From: Adhaeribacter rhizoryzae | GTDB lineage: Bacteria > Bacteroidota > Bacteroidia > Cytophagales > Hymenobacteraceae | NCBI RefSeq assembly: GCF_008629685.1 | Contig: NZ_VWSF01000001.1 | Location: 434,001-498,000 of the forward strand | DNA: 64,000 nt | Direction: 5' to 3' | Part shown: positions 9,483-14,059 of the stretch, one piece after another | Numbering within the stretch: the first letter of the stretch is position 1 | Layout: every line of letters starts with the position of its first letter | Position numbers and translations under genes: made by a program | Notes under the pieces: generated by a model | The model's input: only the letters and a program-made list of their open reading frames with translations | What the model was told of the DNA's origin: nothing | Databases searched by the model: none

Positions 9483-9720
9483 GTACCTGTTGCCAACCAG
9501 TTTTTCTTCTTTCCTATCCTAATTATTCCCCTGATTAGTAATTATTTAATGCCCGATTTTGCCCATTATTCTTTTTCACTAAAGGCAGAATAATCCCTTA
9601 ATATATCCGTAAATATACTTACGCGCCTCCTTTATTTCTGCTGGTTTATAATTGGTTTTAACCGGTAAATTTTATTCTTTTTTGTTGTTGTGGGCTGTTA
9701 TTCCACAAACCGGTAATTTT

Positions 9721-9750
9721 CTTTCCACTTCCTCCACTTTGCCCCACTTT
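9721..9750 (-). promoter_or_regulatory. Distal MraZ-type box array (inverted)
   Basis: Read on the minus strand, these 30 bases contain AAAGTGGGGC, AAAGTGGAGG and then AAGTGGAAAG. The first two boxes are exactly 10 bp apart and the third is shifted by one base. The unit matches the AAAGTGK-N3 repeats known as MraZ boxes in Mollicutes and the TGGG-type repeats of enterobacteria. It faces the proximal array about 200 bp away, so MraZ could bridge the two. Confidence 0.55.
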
Positions 9751-9901
9751 GGTATTGACAGATTAGATATTTCTGATTATAATATTGGTAAATATAATTA
9801 AAACATTGATAGTCAATTGTTTAACTTGATATAGCTTGTTTGTGGGTGTTTTTGCCAGTTGATTGCCCTTGGGAAAACTAGGGTAAAAGTGTGAGTGAAA
9901 T

Positions 9902-9948
9902 TGTGGATAATGTGTATAAGTGGGGTTGATAACCATAATTTATCCACA
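9902..9948. promoter_or_regulatory. Cluster of three perfect DnaA boxes
   Basis: TTATNCACA, the DnaA box consensus, occurs three times with no mismatch: on the minus strand at 9902-9910 (TTATCCACA) and directly adjacent at 9911-9919 (TTATACACA), and on the plus strand at 9940-9948 (TTATCCACA). The outer copies form a 10-bp inverted repeat. The plus-strand box shares its last base with the first proximal MraZ box. Either DnaA control of the division cluster or a replication origin fits; no dnaA gene is in the window. Confidence 0.72.
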
Positions 9949-9974
9949 AAGTGGTAAAAAGTGGGAGAACGAGG
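9948..9974 (+). promoter_or_regulatory. Proximal MraZ operator
   Basis: AAAGTGG occurs at 9948-9954 and again at 9958-9964, followed 10 bp later by a degenerate AACGAGG (9968-9974). This 10-bp period is the known architecture of MraZ boxes, by which MraZ autoregulates its own operon. The array runs into the -33 element of the mraZ promoter, so binding would affect polymerase access. Confidence 0.72.
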
Positions 9975-10004
9975 TTGACTTAATTTTTCTTATCCGTATT
10001 TTTG
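9975..10004 (+). promoter_or_regulatory. mraZ promoter, Bacteroidota -33/-7 type
   Basis: TTG (9975-9977) is followed after 19 bases by TATTTTTG (9997-10004), a perfect match to the TAnnTTTG -7 element of Bacteroidota. Transcription would start near 10011, leaving a short leader of about 30 bases before the mraZ ATG at 10043. The -33 element abuts the MraZ operator. Confidence 0.65.
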
Positions 10005-10042
10005 TTTACTCCGGAATCTACCCGGAAGACAAAAGGCCCTGT

Positions 10043-10510
10043 ATGAACTTTCTTTCCGGCGAATACGAGTGTAAGCTAGACCCGAAAGGAAGATTGGTTT
10101 TACCTGCAAAGATAAAAGCCAATCTGCCCGAGGAATCTGGCAACCAGGTGGTGCTGACCCGGGGGTTTGAGCCGTGCCTGGTACTGTATCCGCAGGCGGC
10201 CTGGAAAGTGATTTACGACAAGGTGGCTAGTTTGAACGAGTTTAACGAAGAGTACCGGAATTTTCAGCGGAATTTTTTCCGGGGTAATACCGAAGTAGAA
10301 CTGGACAGTGCCGGCCGGTTTATTTTGCCCCGTACCATGGTGCGCTACGCCGAAATAGAAAAAGAAGTAATTGTGGTAGGCTTGGGCAATCGCGTTGAAA
10401 TCTGGAACCCCGACAAATACGAAGACTTCCTGATTAAAGATCAGCAAGGATTCTCGTCGTTGGCTCAGAAGTTTTTAGGCGATCAACCTTTAATTGAACC
10501 CGGAATATAA
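10043..10510 (+). CDS. mraZ: Transcriptional regulator MraZ
   Basis: The 155-residue protein has two SpoVT-AbrB-like beta domains, seen in the repeated pattern LDPKGRLVLPAKIK (about 11-24) and LDSAGRFILPRTMV (about 87-100), the duplicated MraZ signature. The open frame extends upstream to 9920, but the ATG at 10043 begins the conserved FLSGEYECKLD start and follows the promoter, so it is the likely start. MraZ forms ring oligomers that bind repeated boxes before its own gene and controls the dcw cluster. Its TAA overlaps the rsmH ATG by one base. Candidate operator arrays lie just upstream. Confidence 0.95.
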   Translation: MNFLSGEYECKLDPKGRLVLPAKIKANLPEESGNQVVLTRGFEPCLVLYPQAAWKVIYDKVASLNEFNEEYRNFQRNFFRGNTEVELDSAGRFILPRTMVRYAEIEKEVIVVGLGNRVEIWNPDKYEDFLIKDQQGFSSLAQKFLGDQPLIEPGI

Positions 10511-11412
10511 TGGCGTATCACAAGCCGGTTATGTTGCAGGAGTCGGTAGAGGCCCTGGCCATAAAGCCCGAAGGGGTTTATGTAGATGTTACGTTTGGCG
10601 GTGGCGGCCATTCGGCCTTAATAGCGAGTAAGCTTACCACCGGTAAATTATTTGGTTTTGATCAGGACCCGGACGCGGAAAAAGAAGGCGAAAAGCTAGA
10701 AGCCAAGACTTTTACGTTTGTGAAAGCCAACTTCCGGTACCTGAAAAAATACCTGCGCCTGTACGGGGCCAAGCAGGTAGATGGCATTTTGGCAGATTTG
10801 GGCGTGTCGTCGTACCAGTTCGATACTTCCGAAAGAGGTTTTTCTACCCGTTTTGATGGGCCGCTGGATATGCGCATGGATAAAGCGGCTGATAAAACCG
10901 CCAAAGATATTTTAATGACTTACGCCGAAGAAGACTTGCACAAGTTGTTTGGGATTTACGGCGAAGTAAAAAATGCCCGGACGCTGGCCCGTACGATTGT
11001 TTTAAAAAGAGCCTCGCAGGAAATCGAAACCATTGGGCAGTTTAAAGAAGCCATTGCGGGCTGTATGCCCAAAGGCAAAGAAAATAAATATTTGGCGCAG
11101 GTATTTCAGGCGTTGCGCATGGAAGTAAACGACGAATTAAAAGCCCTGGAAGAAATGCTGCTGCAGACGGCAGAAGTATTAAAACCAGGAGGGCGCCTGG
11201 TCGTGATTTCCTACCACTCGCTCGAAGACCGGCTGGTGAAAAACTTTATCCGGCAAGGTAAATTCTTCGGCGAAGTAGAGAAAGATTTGTACGGCAACGA
11301 AATAAAGCCTTTTGCTTCGGTATTCCGCAAACCCTTAACTGCTTCGGCTTTAGAGCTGCAGGAAAATAACCGGTCGCGGAGTGCCAAATTGCGGGTAGCT
11401 GAAAAGTTATGA
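10510..11412 (+). CDS. rsmH: 16S rRNA (cytosine(1402)-N(4))-methyltransferase
   Basis: The 300-residue protein is RsmH (MraW). The SAM-binding start VDVTFGGGGHSALI (about 25-38), the ADLGVSSYQFDTSERGFS motif (about 95-112) and the late VVISYHSLEDRLVK motif are all conserved. It methylates N4 of C1402 in 16S rRNA, in the ribosomal P site. The start codon overlaps the mraZ stop (TAATG), so translation is coupled. A 120-base gap follows before ftsL, without an evident promoter or terminator. Confidence 0.96.
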   Translation: MAYHKPVMLQESVEALAIKPEGVYVDVTFGGGGHSALIASKLTTGKLFGFDQDPDAEKEGEKLEAKTFTFVKANFRYLKKYLRLYGAKQVDGILADLGVSSYQFDTSERGFSTRFDGPLDMRMDKAADKTAKDILMTYAEEDLHKLFGIYGEVKNARTLARTIVLKRASQEIETIGQFKEAIAGCMPKGKENKYLAQVFQALRMEVNDELKALEEMLLQTAEVLKPGGRLVVISYHSLEDRLVKNFIRQGKFFGEVEKDLYGNEIKPFASVFRKPLTASALELQENNRSRSAKLRVAEKL

Positions 11413-11532: not shown

Positions 11533-11973
11533 ATGGCGGCAAACACAGTACAAGAAAGACCCCGGGTACAGCGTAAAGTTAACACGCAGCGCCCAGTGCC
11601 CCAGGAAGAGCCGGCGCGGCAGCGCCCGGAGCGGCCAAAAGGGACGAGTATTTTTGAGTTGCTGGACCGGTATACCAAAATGGATGCCTTGTTTCAGTAT
11701 GGCTTGCCGGTTAAATATTTACCTTACATTATTTATTTAATGATAGTTGCCTTGTTTTACATTGGCAACACCCACTACGCCGAAAAAACAATCCGGAAAA
11801 TTGATAAAATAAAAAGCGAAGCCGAAGATTTACGCGCCGATTACACCACCCTGGCCGCCGATTACATGGAAGCCAGTAAGCAATCGGAAGTAGCTCGTAA
11901 GGTAATGCCCTTCGGAATTGTGGAAAGTTCTTCACCACCTTACCAGATAGAAGTGTATGGCGAAGAATATTAA
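11533..11973 (+). CDS. ftsL: FtsL-like division protein
   Basis: The 146-residue protein has a basic, proline- and glutamine-rich cytoplasmic N-terminus (1-45), one membrane segment (about 61-80, YLPYIIYLMIVALFYIG), and a predicted short coiled coil in the periplasm (about 85-125). This bitopic layout and the place between rsmH and ftsI identify it as the FtsL counterpart, which in E. coli joins FtsQ and FtsB to activate septal peptidoglycan synthesis. The sequence itself is weakly conserved, so the assignment leans on topology and synteny. Its last 17 bases overlap ftsI. Confidence 0.82.
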   Translation: MAANTVQERPRVQRKVNTQRPVPQEEPARQRPERPKGTSIFELLDRYTKMDALFQYGLPVKYLPYIIYLMIVALFYIGNTHYAEKTIRKIDKIKSEAEDLRADYTTLAADYMEASKQSEVARKVMPFGIVESSSPPYQIEVYGEEY

Positions 11974-14059
11974 GAAATCTATTGTTACCCGGGTGCGGGT
12001 AGCATTTTTGGCTATCTGCCTGTTTGCGGTGGCCATTGTAGCCAAAGTGGTGCACGTGCAGTTTTTCGAGGGTAAAAAGTGGGCGCAGCTGCAAAAAGAA
12101 AGTCGCATGATTTACCTGCCGGTGTATGCCACCCGGGGCAATGTGCTATCTGATAACGAGAGTATTATGGCCACTTCTTTGCCGTTCTACCGCGTTGCTT
12201 TTGACCCTACTATCTGCGACGAGAAGCATTTTAACAAAGGCATTGATTCCTTAGCCCTTCTATTATCCCGATTTTACAGAGACAAATCCGCCGAAGGTTA
12301 CCGCCGCAAAATAAAAAACGCTCGCTTGGCTAAACGGCGTTACATCCGTATTCACAGCCGCCAGTTAAATTACCAGGAAAAAAAGATGATGGCCTCCTGG
12401 CCTATTTTCCGGGAAGGTAAAAACAAAGGCGGCGTTATATTCGAGAAGGTAGATAAGCGTTTTCGTCCGTTTGGCACCTTGGCTCAGCGTACCATTGGCC
12501 GCATTACCGAAGATAAAAAAGGCTCTGGTTTAGAATATACTTACAACAGCTACCTGGCGGGTAAAGACGGCGAAGCTTTATTTGAAAGAATGGCCGGCGG
12601 TAATAAACCAATTTACAATGCTACCGATGTAAAGCCGCTGCCAGGCTATGATTTAAAAACTACTATTGATATTAACCTGCAAGACGTAGCCGAAAATGCC
12701 TTGTACAAAGCGCTGGTAGCCAATAATGCCCAGTACGGTTGCGTGGTTTTAATGGAAGTAAAAACCGGTGAAATAAAAGCTATTGCCAACTTAGGCAAAG
12801 CCGGCGAAGGCGTTTATGTAGAAAACTACAACTACGCCGTTGGTAACCACGGCCGTACCGAGCCGGGCTCTACGTTTAAGCTGGCTTCTATGATGGCCCT
12901 TTTCGAAGAAACCAACCTTACACCATCCGATACCATAGATACCGGTCACGGCCGCCAGTTAATTGCCGGTAAAGCCATGGGCGAAGCAACCGGCGGTGGT
13001 TACGGCAAAATATCGGTTGGGCAGGTTTTCGAGAAGTCTTCGAACGTAGGTACGGCCAAACTTATTGAGCAGCATTTTGGTACGCAACCCCAAAAATTTG
13101 TAGATTATTTGCACGAATTTGGCTTGTCTAAGCCTTTGGGTTTCCAGATGCACGGCGAGGCTAAACCTTTTATCCGGACGCCGGCAGATGTAAGCTGGAG
13201 CCGGACTTCTTTGTCGCGGATGTCCATTGGCTACGGCCTGAAAATTTCGCCCTTACAAACCCTGGCTTTTTACAACGCAGTAGCAAATAACGGCATTAAA
13301 GTTACCCCCATTATTGTAAAGGAAATCCGGAAGGGCAGTACGGTAATCGAAAGTTTTGATGCGCAGGATTTTAACCCGACCCGCATTTGCTCCGAAGAAA
13401 CCGTAAAAAAATTGCGCGTGTTAATGGAAGGCGTGGTAGAGCACGGTACCGGTAAACACGTGAAAAGCCAATATTACAAAGTGGCCGGTAAAACTGGTAC
13501 TTCCTGGAAAATCAAAAATGGTAAATACATAAAAGATTATTCCACTTCGTTTGCTGGTTATTTTCCAGCCGATAATCCTAAATATTCCTGCATTGTAATT
13601 ATTGATACGCCCAAAAGCGGCCGGATTTACGGTGGCGATGTGGCAGCGCCGGTTTTCCGGGAACTGGCCGATAAAGCCTATGCCCGCGATTTAAGCCTGC
13701 ATAAACCTTTGGCCACCCGGGTAATTACCGACCGTCAGAAATTGCCACCGGTAAAAGCCGGCAACCAGGAAGAATTAACCTTAATCACGAATAAATTAGG
13801 TATCAGCACGCATAACAAATCAGAAGAAGAATGGGTGAAAGCCGATTCGCAGGGCCACTCGCTGATTTGGAAATCTAATAAACTCATGGTAGGGCGCGTG
13901 CCCGATGTTGCCGGCATGACCTTGCGCGATGCCCTTTTTGTACTGGGTAACCAAGGCTTAAAAGTGCAAACCGAGGGTAAAGGCCGGGTTCAGGCGCAAT
14001 CGCTGGAGCCGGGTACCCCCATTAAGAAAGGAAGTATTATTACTATAAAATTAAGTTAA
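11957..14059 (+). CDS. ftsI: Septal peptidoglycan transpeptidase FtsI (class B PBP) with PASTA domain
   Basis: The 700-residue protein has an N-terminal membrane anchor (about 10-34), a PBP dimerisation domain (about 50-220) and a transpeptidase domain. Active-site motifs are S305-T-F-K308, S361-S-N363 and K512-T-G-T515. A single PASTA domain follows at about 643-700, a feature usual in Bacteroidota and Gram-positive homologues but not in E. coli FtsI. The protein crosslinks peptidoglycan at the division septum and is a beta-lactam target. It overlaps ftsL by 17 bases and its stop overlaps the murE start (TAATG). Confidence 0.95.
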   Translation: MAKNIKKSIVTRVRVAFLAICLFAVAIVAKVVHVQFFEGKKWAQLQKESRMIYLPVYATRGNVLSDNESIMATSLPFYRVAFDPTICDEKHFNKGIDSLALLLSRFYRDKSAEGYRRKIKNARLAKRRYIRIHSRQLNYQEKKMMASWPIFREGKNKGGVIFEKVDKRFRPFGTLAQRTIGRITEDKKGSGLEYTYNSYLAGKDGEALFERMAGGNKPIYNATDVKPLPGYDLKTTIDINLQDVAENALYKALVANNAQYGCVVLMEVKTGEIKAIANLGKAGEGVYVENYNYAVGNHGRTEPGSTFKLASMMALFEETNLTPSDTIDTGHGRQLIAGKAMGEATGGGYGKISVGQVFEKSSNVGTAKLIEQHFGTQPQKFVDYLHEFGLSKPLGFQMHGEAKPFIRTPADVSWSRTSLSRMSIGYGLKISPLQTLAFYNAVANNGIKVTPIIVKEIRKGSTVIESFDAQDFNPTRICSEETVKKLRVLMEGVVEHGTGKHVKSQYYKVAGKTGTSWKIKNGKYIKDYSTSFAGYFPADNPKYSCIVIIDTPKSGRIYGGDVAAPVFRELADKAYARDLSLHKPLATRVITDRQKLPPVKAGNQEELTLITNKLGISTHNKSEEEWVKADSQGHSLIWKSNKLMVGRVPDVAGMTLRDALFVLGNQGLKVQTEGKGRVQAQSLEPGTPIKKGSIITIKLS

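Follow-up and report, generated by a model that had tools for sequence, protein, structure and literature searches.

We propose that positions 9902-10004 of the window, the 64,000-nucleotide stretch of Adhaeribacter rhizoryzae DNA analysed here (C1:434001-498000 of a 6.52 Mb assembly in 53 contigs), form a composite DnaA/MraZ operator-promoter of the division (dcw) cluster; given the arrangement and conservation of its motifs, we regard this reading as probable. The linkage between replication and division has long been an open question. With its strongly conserved and precisely phased DnaA boxes, the promoter of the division cluster hints that chromosome copying and division may be linked directly, in a way that can be put to the test.

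Anatomy of the element upstream of mraZ

The division cluster lies on the plus strand and opens with mraZ (10043-10510, PF02381) and rsmH (mraW; 10510-11412, PF01795). These are followed by an ftsL-like gene (11533-11973, PF19579), a gene for an ftsI/pbpB-type transpeptidase with a PASTA domain (11957-14059, Pfam) and, between 14059 and 20658, a Mur ligase gene in the place of murE, mraY, murD, ftsW and murG, which were named from their Pfam families and their order. Among named MraZ proteins the nearest, at 99%, is the one of Adhaeribacter aerolatus, and the protein of the window also matches solved MraZ structures. Upstream of the boxes lies a gene for a fatty acid desaturase family protein (Pfam). 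The window itself contains no dnaA, in agreement with the earlier note, as the sole full-length dnaA sits on contig C24. The encoded DnaA has 474 amino acids and scores over the family cut-off; its C-terminal 97 residues align with the DnaA entry 1j1v (E 1.1e-19), which we take to be domain IV of E. coli DnaA on a DnaA box, and retain GGRDH[S/T]TV. Judged by this alignment, the box-binding domain of the protein is conserved.

The earlier note had reported three perfect copies of the DnaA box TTATNCACA directly upstream of this cluster, and these were confirmed in number, position and sequence, with zero mismatches. Box R1, TTATCCACA, occupies 9902-9910 on the minus strand; box R2, TTATACACA, touches R1 and occupies 9911-9919 on the same strand; box R3, again TTATCCACA, is inverted and occupies 9940-9948 on the plus strand. 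With respect to the predicted transcription start they would lie at about -107 to -99, -98 to -90 and -69 to -61, respectively. Between R2 and R3 the sequence reads as a weak DnaA-like site, R4, at 9924-9932 on the minus strand, which is GGTTGATAA in the window and has seven of the nine consensus letters.

The boxes form part of a 75-bp element, in which the touching R1 and R2, the weak R4 and the inverted R3 are followed by three GTGG repeats and then by a promoter of the Bacteroidota type. The repeats (9949-9974, plus strand) have a period of 10 bp, with GTGG at 9951, GTGG at 9961 and GAGG at 9971; the third repeat is GTGG in most relatives. R3 touches the first of them. Direct repeats of the AAAGTG[T/G] kind, as described for the MraZ repeat in Mollicutes (PMC8475190), are thus present upstream of mraZ, and the repeat region, at about -58 to -35, is a likely MraZ operator. 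The TTG of the -33 promoter element follows at 9975-9977 and a -7 element, TAnnTTTG, at 9997-10004, 19 bp past the TTG, both on the plus strand. The consensus TTG-N19-TAnnTTTG and its numbering (-12 to -5) are those given in PMC6847099, where the -33 element is described as weak in Flavobacterium johnsoniae, and they place the predicted transcription start near 10009.

Two further readings of the element were rejected. Read upstream, the mraZ frame stays open as far as a GTG at 9920, but the length of this open frame varies between 157 and 271 amino acids across 100 relatives, and the element is therefore unlikely to be coding. A structured RNA was likewise discarded, with no Rfam match at E values up to 1 in 9483-10100. 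The AT-rich stretch that the earlier note had described at 9751-9835 is real, with 78% AT compared with 56% in the window, and only 1.2% of 85-bp windows are as AT-rich. At the same place in 55 relatives the AT content averages 67% and ranges from 49 to 80%; the stretch is therefore no constant partner of the boxes, and we rejected it as an unwinding element on account of this inconstancy.

The unusual feature of the boxes is their clustering and not their number. TTATNCACA occurs six times in the 64-kb window against a mean of 2.51 in shuffled sequence, which is a mild rise only, as six or more were found in 6 of 100 shuffles. Counted across the genome, as the earlier note had suggested, the boxes are not in excess (133, or 67+66 on the two strands, against 153, or 75+78, for the reversed control pattern), but their tight clustering upstream of mraZ is unusual. 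In random placements of 133 sites over 6.52 Mb, three starts fell within 38 bp in 1 of 20,000 trials, and some pair was equally close in about 10% of trials. The trio is the tightest cluster of perfect boxes found in the genome; among perfect pairs no more than 30 bp apart, no further direct or divergent one was found, and one further convergent pair was, at C51:208161-208194. Facing TTATCCACA pairs 15-40 bp apart were found in only 5 of 395 genomes sampled across the phylum, the present genome being one of the five, in a sample that holds few genomes from the box-bearing genera of its own family.

Some other box pairs were observed along the way. Two direct TTATCCACA boxes lie at G016:C1:2209114-2209153, between genes that by eye are nrdB-like (ribonucleotide reductase) and rplU-like; nrd genes have been proposed as DnaA targets elsewhere (PMC8203912). 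A palindrome, TGTGGATAA-6 bp-TTATCCACA, recurs in three genomes of the genus g3, namely G002 (L290 3250), G084 (L291 3216) and G088 (L292 3188), where its neighbours agree only partly, by eye. In a brief look, also by eye, mraZ was not recognised beside these palindromes, beside divergent pairs in g5 or beside the pairs from the phylum-wide sample in G358, G434, G464 and G476.

Conservation among relatives

We compared mraZ loci in two overlapping sets. The named set comprises 80 loci, of which 55 are from Adhaeribacter (5), Pontibacter (38), Rufibacter (10), Sabulibacter (1) and Botryobacter (1) and 25 from other Cytophagales; the family set comprises 64 loci fetched from 100 genomes of the family. 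At least two perfect boxes lie upstream of mraZ in 55/55 of the named loci from the five genera, in all 30 family loci fetched by best match (all three boxes in 22 of them) and in 10/10 further loci from the genera g3 and g6, which gives 40 of the 64 family loci overall. In the genera g4 and g5 of the same family, which may be Hymenobacter and a neighbour genus, no perfect box was found in any of 24 mraZ loci. The recurrence of the boxes before mraZ in related genera, by which the earlier note proposed to check its regulatory reading, is thus seen in the close relatives and lacking in g4 and g5, and supports that reading in part.

An alignment of the 55 loci (53 distinct sequences), anchored on R3 and AnGTGG, an anchor present in all of them, shows how closely the element is kept. 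Mean column identity is 98% in R1 and R2, 93.5% in the spacer between R2 and R3, 100% in R3 and 94.5% in the GTGG repeats, and the upstream edge is sharp, with 59% identity just before R1. The letters of R1 are unchanged in 52 of the 55 relatives. R2 fits TTATNCACA in 51, and its most variable column (78%) is the N of that consensus. R4 reads GGTGGATAA, TGTGGATTA or AGTGGATAA in 52 and, in most relatives, forms an inverted repeat with R3, which is itself present in every one. TAnnTTTG stands 57 bp from the start of R3 in 55/55, whereas the distance from R3 to the ATG ranges from 99 to 106, which indicates a coupling of the element to the promoter. Only 13 of the 80 named loci have the upstream neighbour gene within 1.5 kb, so that the element stays with mraZ.

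Parts of the element reach beyond these genera. The 24 g4/g5 loci keep MraZ-type repeats with a 10-bp period (GTGG/ATGG/GTGG or three GTGG), and such repeats were also found across other families. Among the 25 other Cytophagales loci, none has two or more boxes within 200 bp, and nine have a single box. An inverted box beside GTGG- or ATGG-type repeats also occurs in Sporocytophaga (2/2) and in the MAG loci L254, L257 and L258. Of 390 genomes of the order, 36 carry the joint motif TTATCCACAAAGTGG-N2-4-AARTGG, each in a single copy, and these belong solely to the families f1 (28) and f15 (8); in f15 a downstream mraZ was recognised by motif in five of the eight loci and by coordinates in G195, with G622 and G655 outside this tally. 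The lack of boxes in g4 and g5, and of two or more boxes in the other Cytophagales loci, indicates that the DnaA part is dispensable there. We conclude that it is a lineage-specific layer, which the division cluster of relatives can do without; the sister genera that retain the repeats and lack the boxes offer natural controls.

Location of the replication origin

The earlier note had also offered the boxes as a possible replication origin, and this part of its reading has to be abandoned. There is no skew switch at mraZ: on C1, positive GC skew was obtained for 9 of the 10 pieces sampled ahead of the window, for 7 of 8 window segments and for 6 of 7 pieces after it. The sampled switch lies on C51. 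Of 11 samples there that start no later than 130 kb, 10 have negative skew and one a value of +0.002, whereas 6/6 samples from 140 kb on are positive. In G022, a relative with a complete genome, cumulative skew over 40 samples of 10 kb is lowest at 2.87 Mb, with near-equal values from 2.64 Mb, and this minimum adjoins a group of TTATCCACA sites at 2861184-2862058. The full set of three boxes precedes mraZ in G022 too, at 1.28 Mb and so 1.4-1.6 Mb from the minimum, and the samples on either side of its mraZ (1.21 and 1.32 Mb) both have negative skew. Nor is the box cluster kept by all near relatives, as its absence from g4 and g5 stands against 40/40 loci in the other genera examined. An origin at this place, for which the tightness of the perfect-box cluster and the AT-rich neighbour could be adduced, is extremely improbable in the face of the one-signed skew of C1, the sign change on C51, the distant minimum in G022 and the box-free g4/g5 loci. 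The boxes upstream of mraZ are not the replication origin.

The true oriC would be expected on C51 at about 125-140 kb, and a candidate for it is an intergenic stretch at C51:125671-126141, which is 69% AT and lies near the skew sign change. It holds seven one-mismatch DnaA boxes in 300 bp (from C51:125854 on), the densest such group in the 418 kb of this genome that was scanned; the next separate place, C1:153419, has six, and box density alone therefore does not single out the C51 stretch. Its two flanking genes have relatives that frame a perfect box in 3/3 g5 genomes (G055, G075 and G095), and the same two genes did not turn up in the pieces retrieved from G022 (taken near its skew minimum), G012, G002, G084, G088 and G016. 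Nine of the 31 TTATCCACA sites of the genome fall within 33 kb, at C51:96867-130143, several of them inside genes, and none of 20,000 random placements was as dense; the group resembles the box enrichment described near the E. coli origin (PMC12371093). The neighbourhood of dnaA was also considered as an origin, and no perfect TTATNCACA was found in the first 6 kb of C24.

A proposed switch, its rivals and known systems

The results suggest the following mechanism for the composite operator-promoter. DnaA would bind cooperatively at R1, R2, R4 and R3, from about -107 to -61 with respect to the transcription start, and MraZ would bind the three GTGG repeats, from about -58 to -35, where it would abut R3 and adjoin the -33 element. 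The state of DnaA or its free amount, as a readout of replication, would then alter the strength with which MraZ represses mraZ, rsmH, ftsL, ftsI and the genes behind them. We consider it no more than slightly likelier that DnaA acts against MraZ, by activation or antirepression, than that the two repress jointly, because the boxes sit upstream of the core promoter and not on it. Binding by both proteins and the coupling of division to replication are what we infer from the motifs and their phasing. As would be expected of a DnaA-regulated promoter, consensus boxes stand at a fixed distance from the promoter in each of the 55 named loci from the five genera; their absence from g4 and g5, however, counts against the model, as does the lack of a genome-wide excess of TTATNCACA. 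As a further counterpoint, the spacer is nearly as conserved as the boxes, which makes a third protein possible.

A broader version of this proposal is offered with some reserve, as we hold it to be somewhat less than an even chance. One branch of the family, made up of Adhaeribacter, Pontibacter, Rufibacter and their neighbours, may begin its division cluster with a promoter that is a fixed DnaA-MraZ switch, in which initiator and repressor read each other out and the output of division genes is set by the state of replication. A smaller version, consisting of an inverted box and MraZ repeats, may be ancestral in part of the Cytophagales and may have been lost in g4 and g5.

Several other proteins or roles could account for the conserved element, and these have to be weighed against the composite operator-promoter. 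MraZ is a ring-shaped oligomer, and the boxes might be extra MraZ sites, so that MraZ covers the whole 75 bp and any resemblance to DnaA boxes is a chance or secondary feature. The GTGG core is part of TGTGGATAA, such cores occur throughout the element, and the spacer keeps GTGGnGtGGAT; in E. coli, moreover, MraZ is described as binding over the DnaA box of mioC (PMC4446571). The GTG(G) cores among the boxes are, however, 9, 8 and 5 bp apart and not 10, R3 is inverted, ATAA/TTAT outside the core is also kept, and the N of the DnaA consensus is the most variable position of R2. Together with the g4/g5 loci, which hold MraZ-type repeats with no box at all, these features make extra MraZ sites an unlikely explanation. 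An even more general possibility is that some other regulator or a nucleoid protein recognises the 75 bp. The near-invariance of the spacer, which extends to letters outside any DnaA box, would fit such a protein; three perfect DnaA boxes would then be a coincidence of the rarity seen in random placement, and the variation of R2 is the one that the DnaA consensus allows. We consider this very improbable.

The array could instead be aimed at DnaA itself, as a site of DnaA reactivation (DARS-like), inactivation (datA-like) or titration, and be intergenic at mraZ by chance. It has three strong boxes, one opposed to two, as in the cores of DARS1 and DARS2 (PMC5742627), and it is intergenic and away from oriC. 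Against this stand the constant 57 bp to the promoter and the constant fusion with the GTGG repeats in 55/55 loci, and we regard the idea as improbable.

A literature search that was thin on subscription papers returned no prior description of DnaA boxes at a Bacteroidota mraZ promoter. The repressor half of the proposal has precedent, as MraZ is described as a repressor of the cluster that encodes it, both in Mycoplasma genitalium and in E. coli (PMC8475190). For the DnaA half, a close parallel is the ftsL promoter of Bacillus subtilis, where DnaA has been located (Goranov 2005, as described in PMC8203912 and PMC11019786) at the promoter of an operon with rsmH, ftsL and pbpB. B. subtilis belongs to another phylum; here, a fixed box array is fused to MraZ-type repeats and DnaA is predicted from sequence. 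Two proteins of the ftsL operon are described as unchanged in replication-arrested B. subtilis (PMC11019786), which counts against our model. DnaA also binds the ftsZ promoter of Caulobacter crescentus in vitro (PMC8203912); this too is a division-gene promoter with DnaA, but the gene is a different one and the description consulted mentions no MraZ repeats. In E. coli, DnaA boxes upstream of ftsZ were later shown to be without action on ftsZ transcription (PMC8203912), and the boxes favoured by E. coli DnaA stand 2-3 bp apart (PMC11317965), whereas R1 and R2 touch; both observations count against the model.

In its orientation pattern, with one box opposed to two, the present array fits the E. 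coli DARS1 and DARS2 cores (PMC5742627), which likewise have three boxes, at a fixed spacing of their own, and an intergenic position. DARS acts on the nucleotide exchange of DnaA, whereas the array upstream of mraZ keeps a fixed phase with a promoter and runs into MraZ-type repeats. A likeness to such a junction is offered by the E. coli mioC promoter, at which sites for the two proteins also meet, a DnaA box being overlapped by one for MraZ (Eraso 2014, as described in PMC4446571). There, the sites overlap at a gene on the side of oriC; in A. rhizoryzae and its relatives they abut, at the promoter of mraZ itself and as part of a conserved array.
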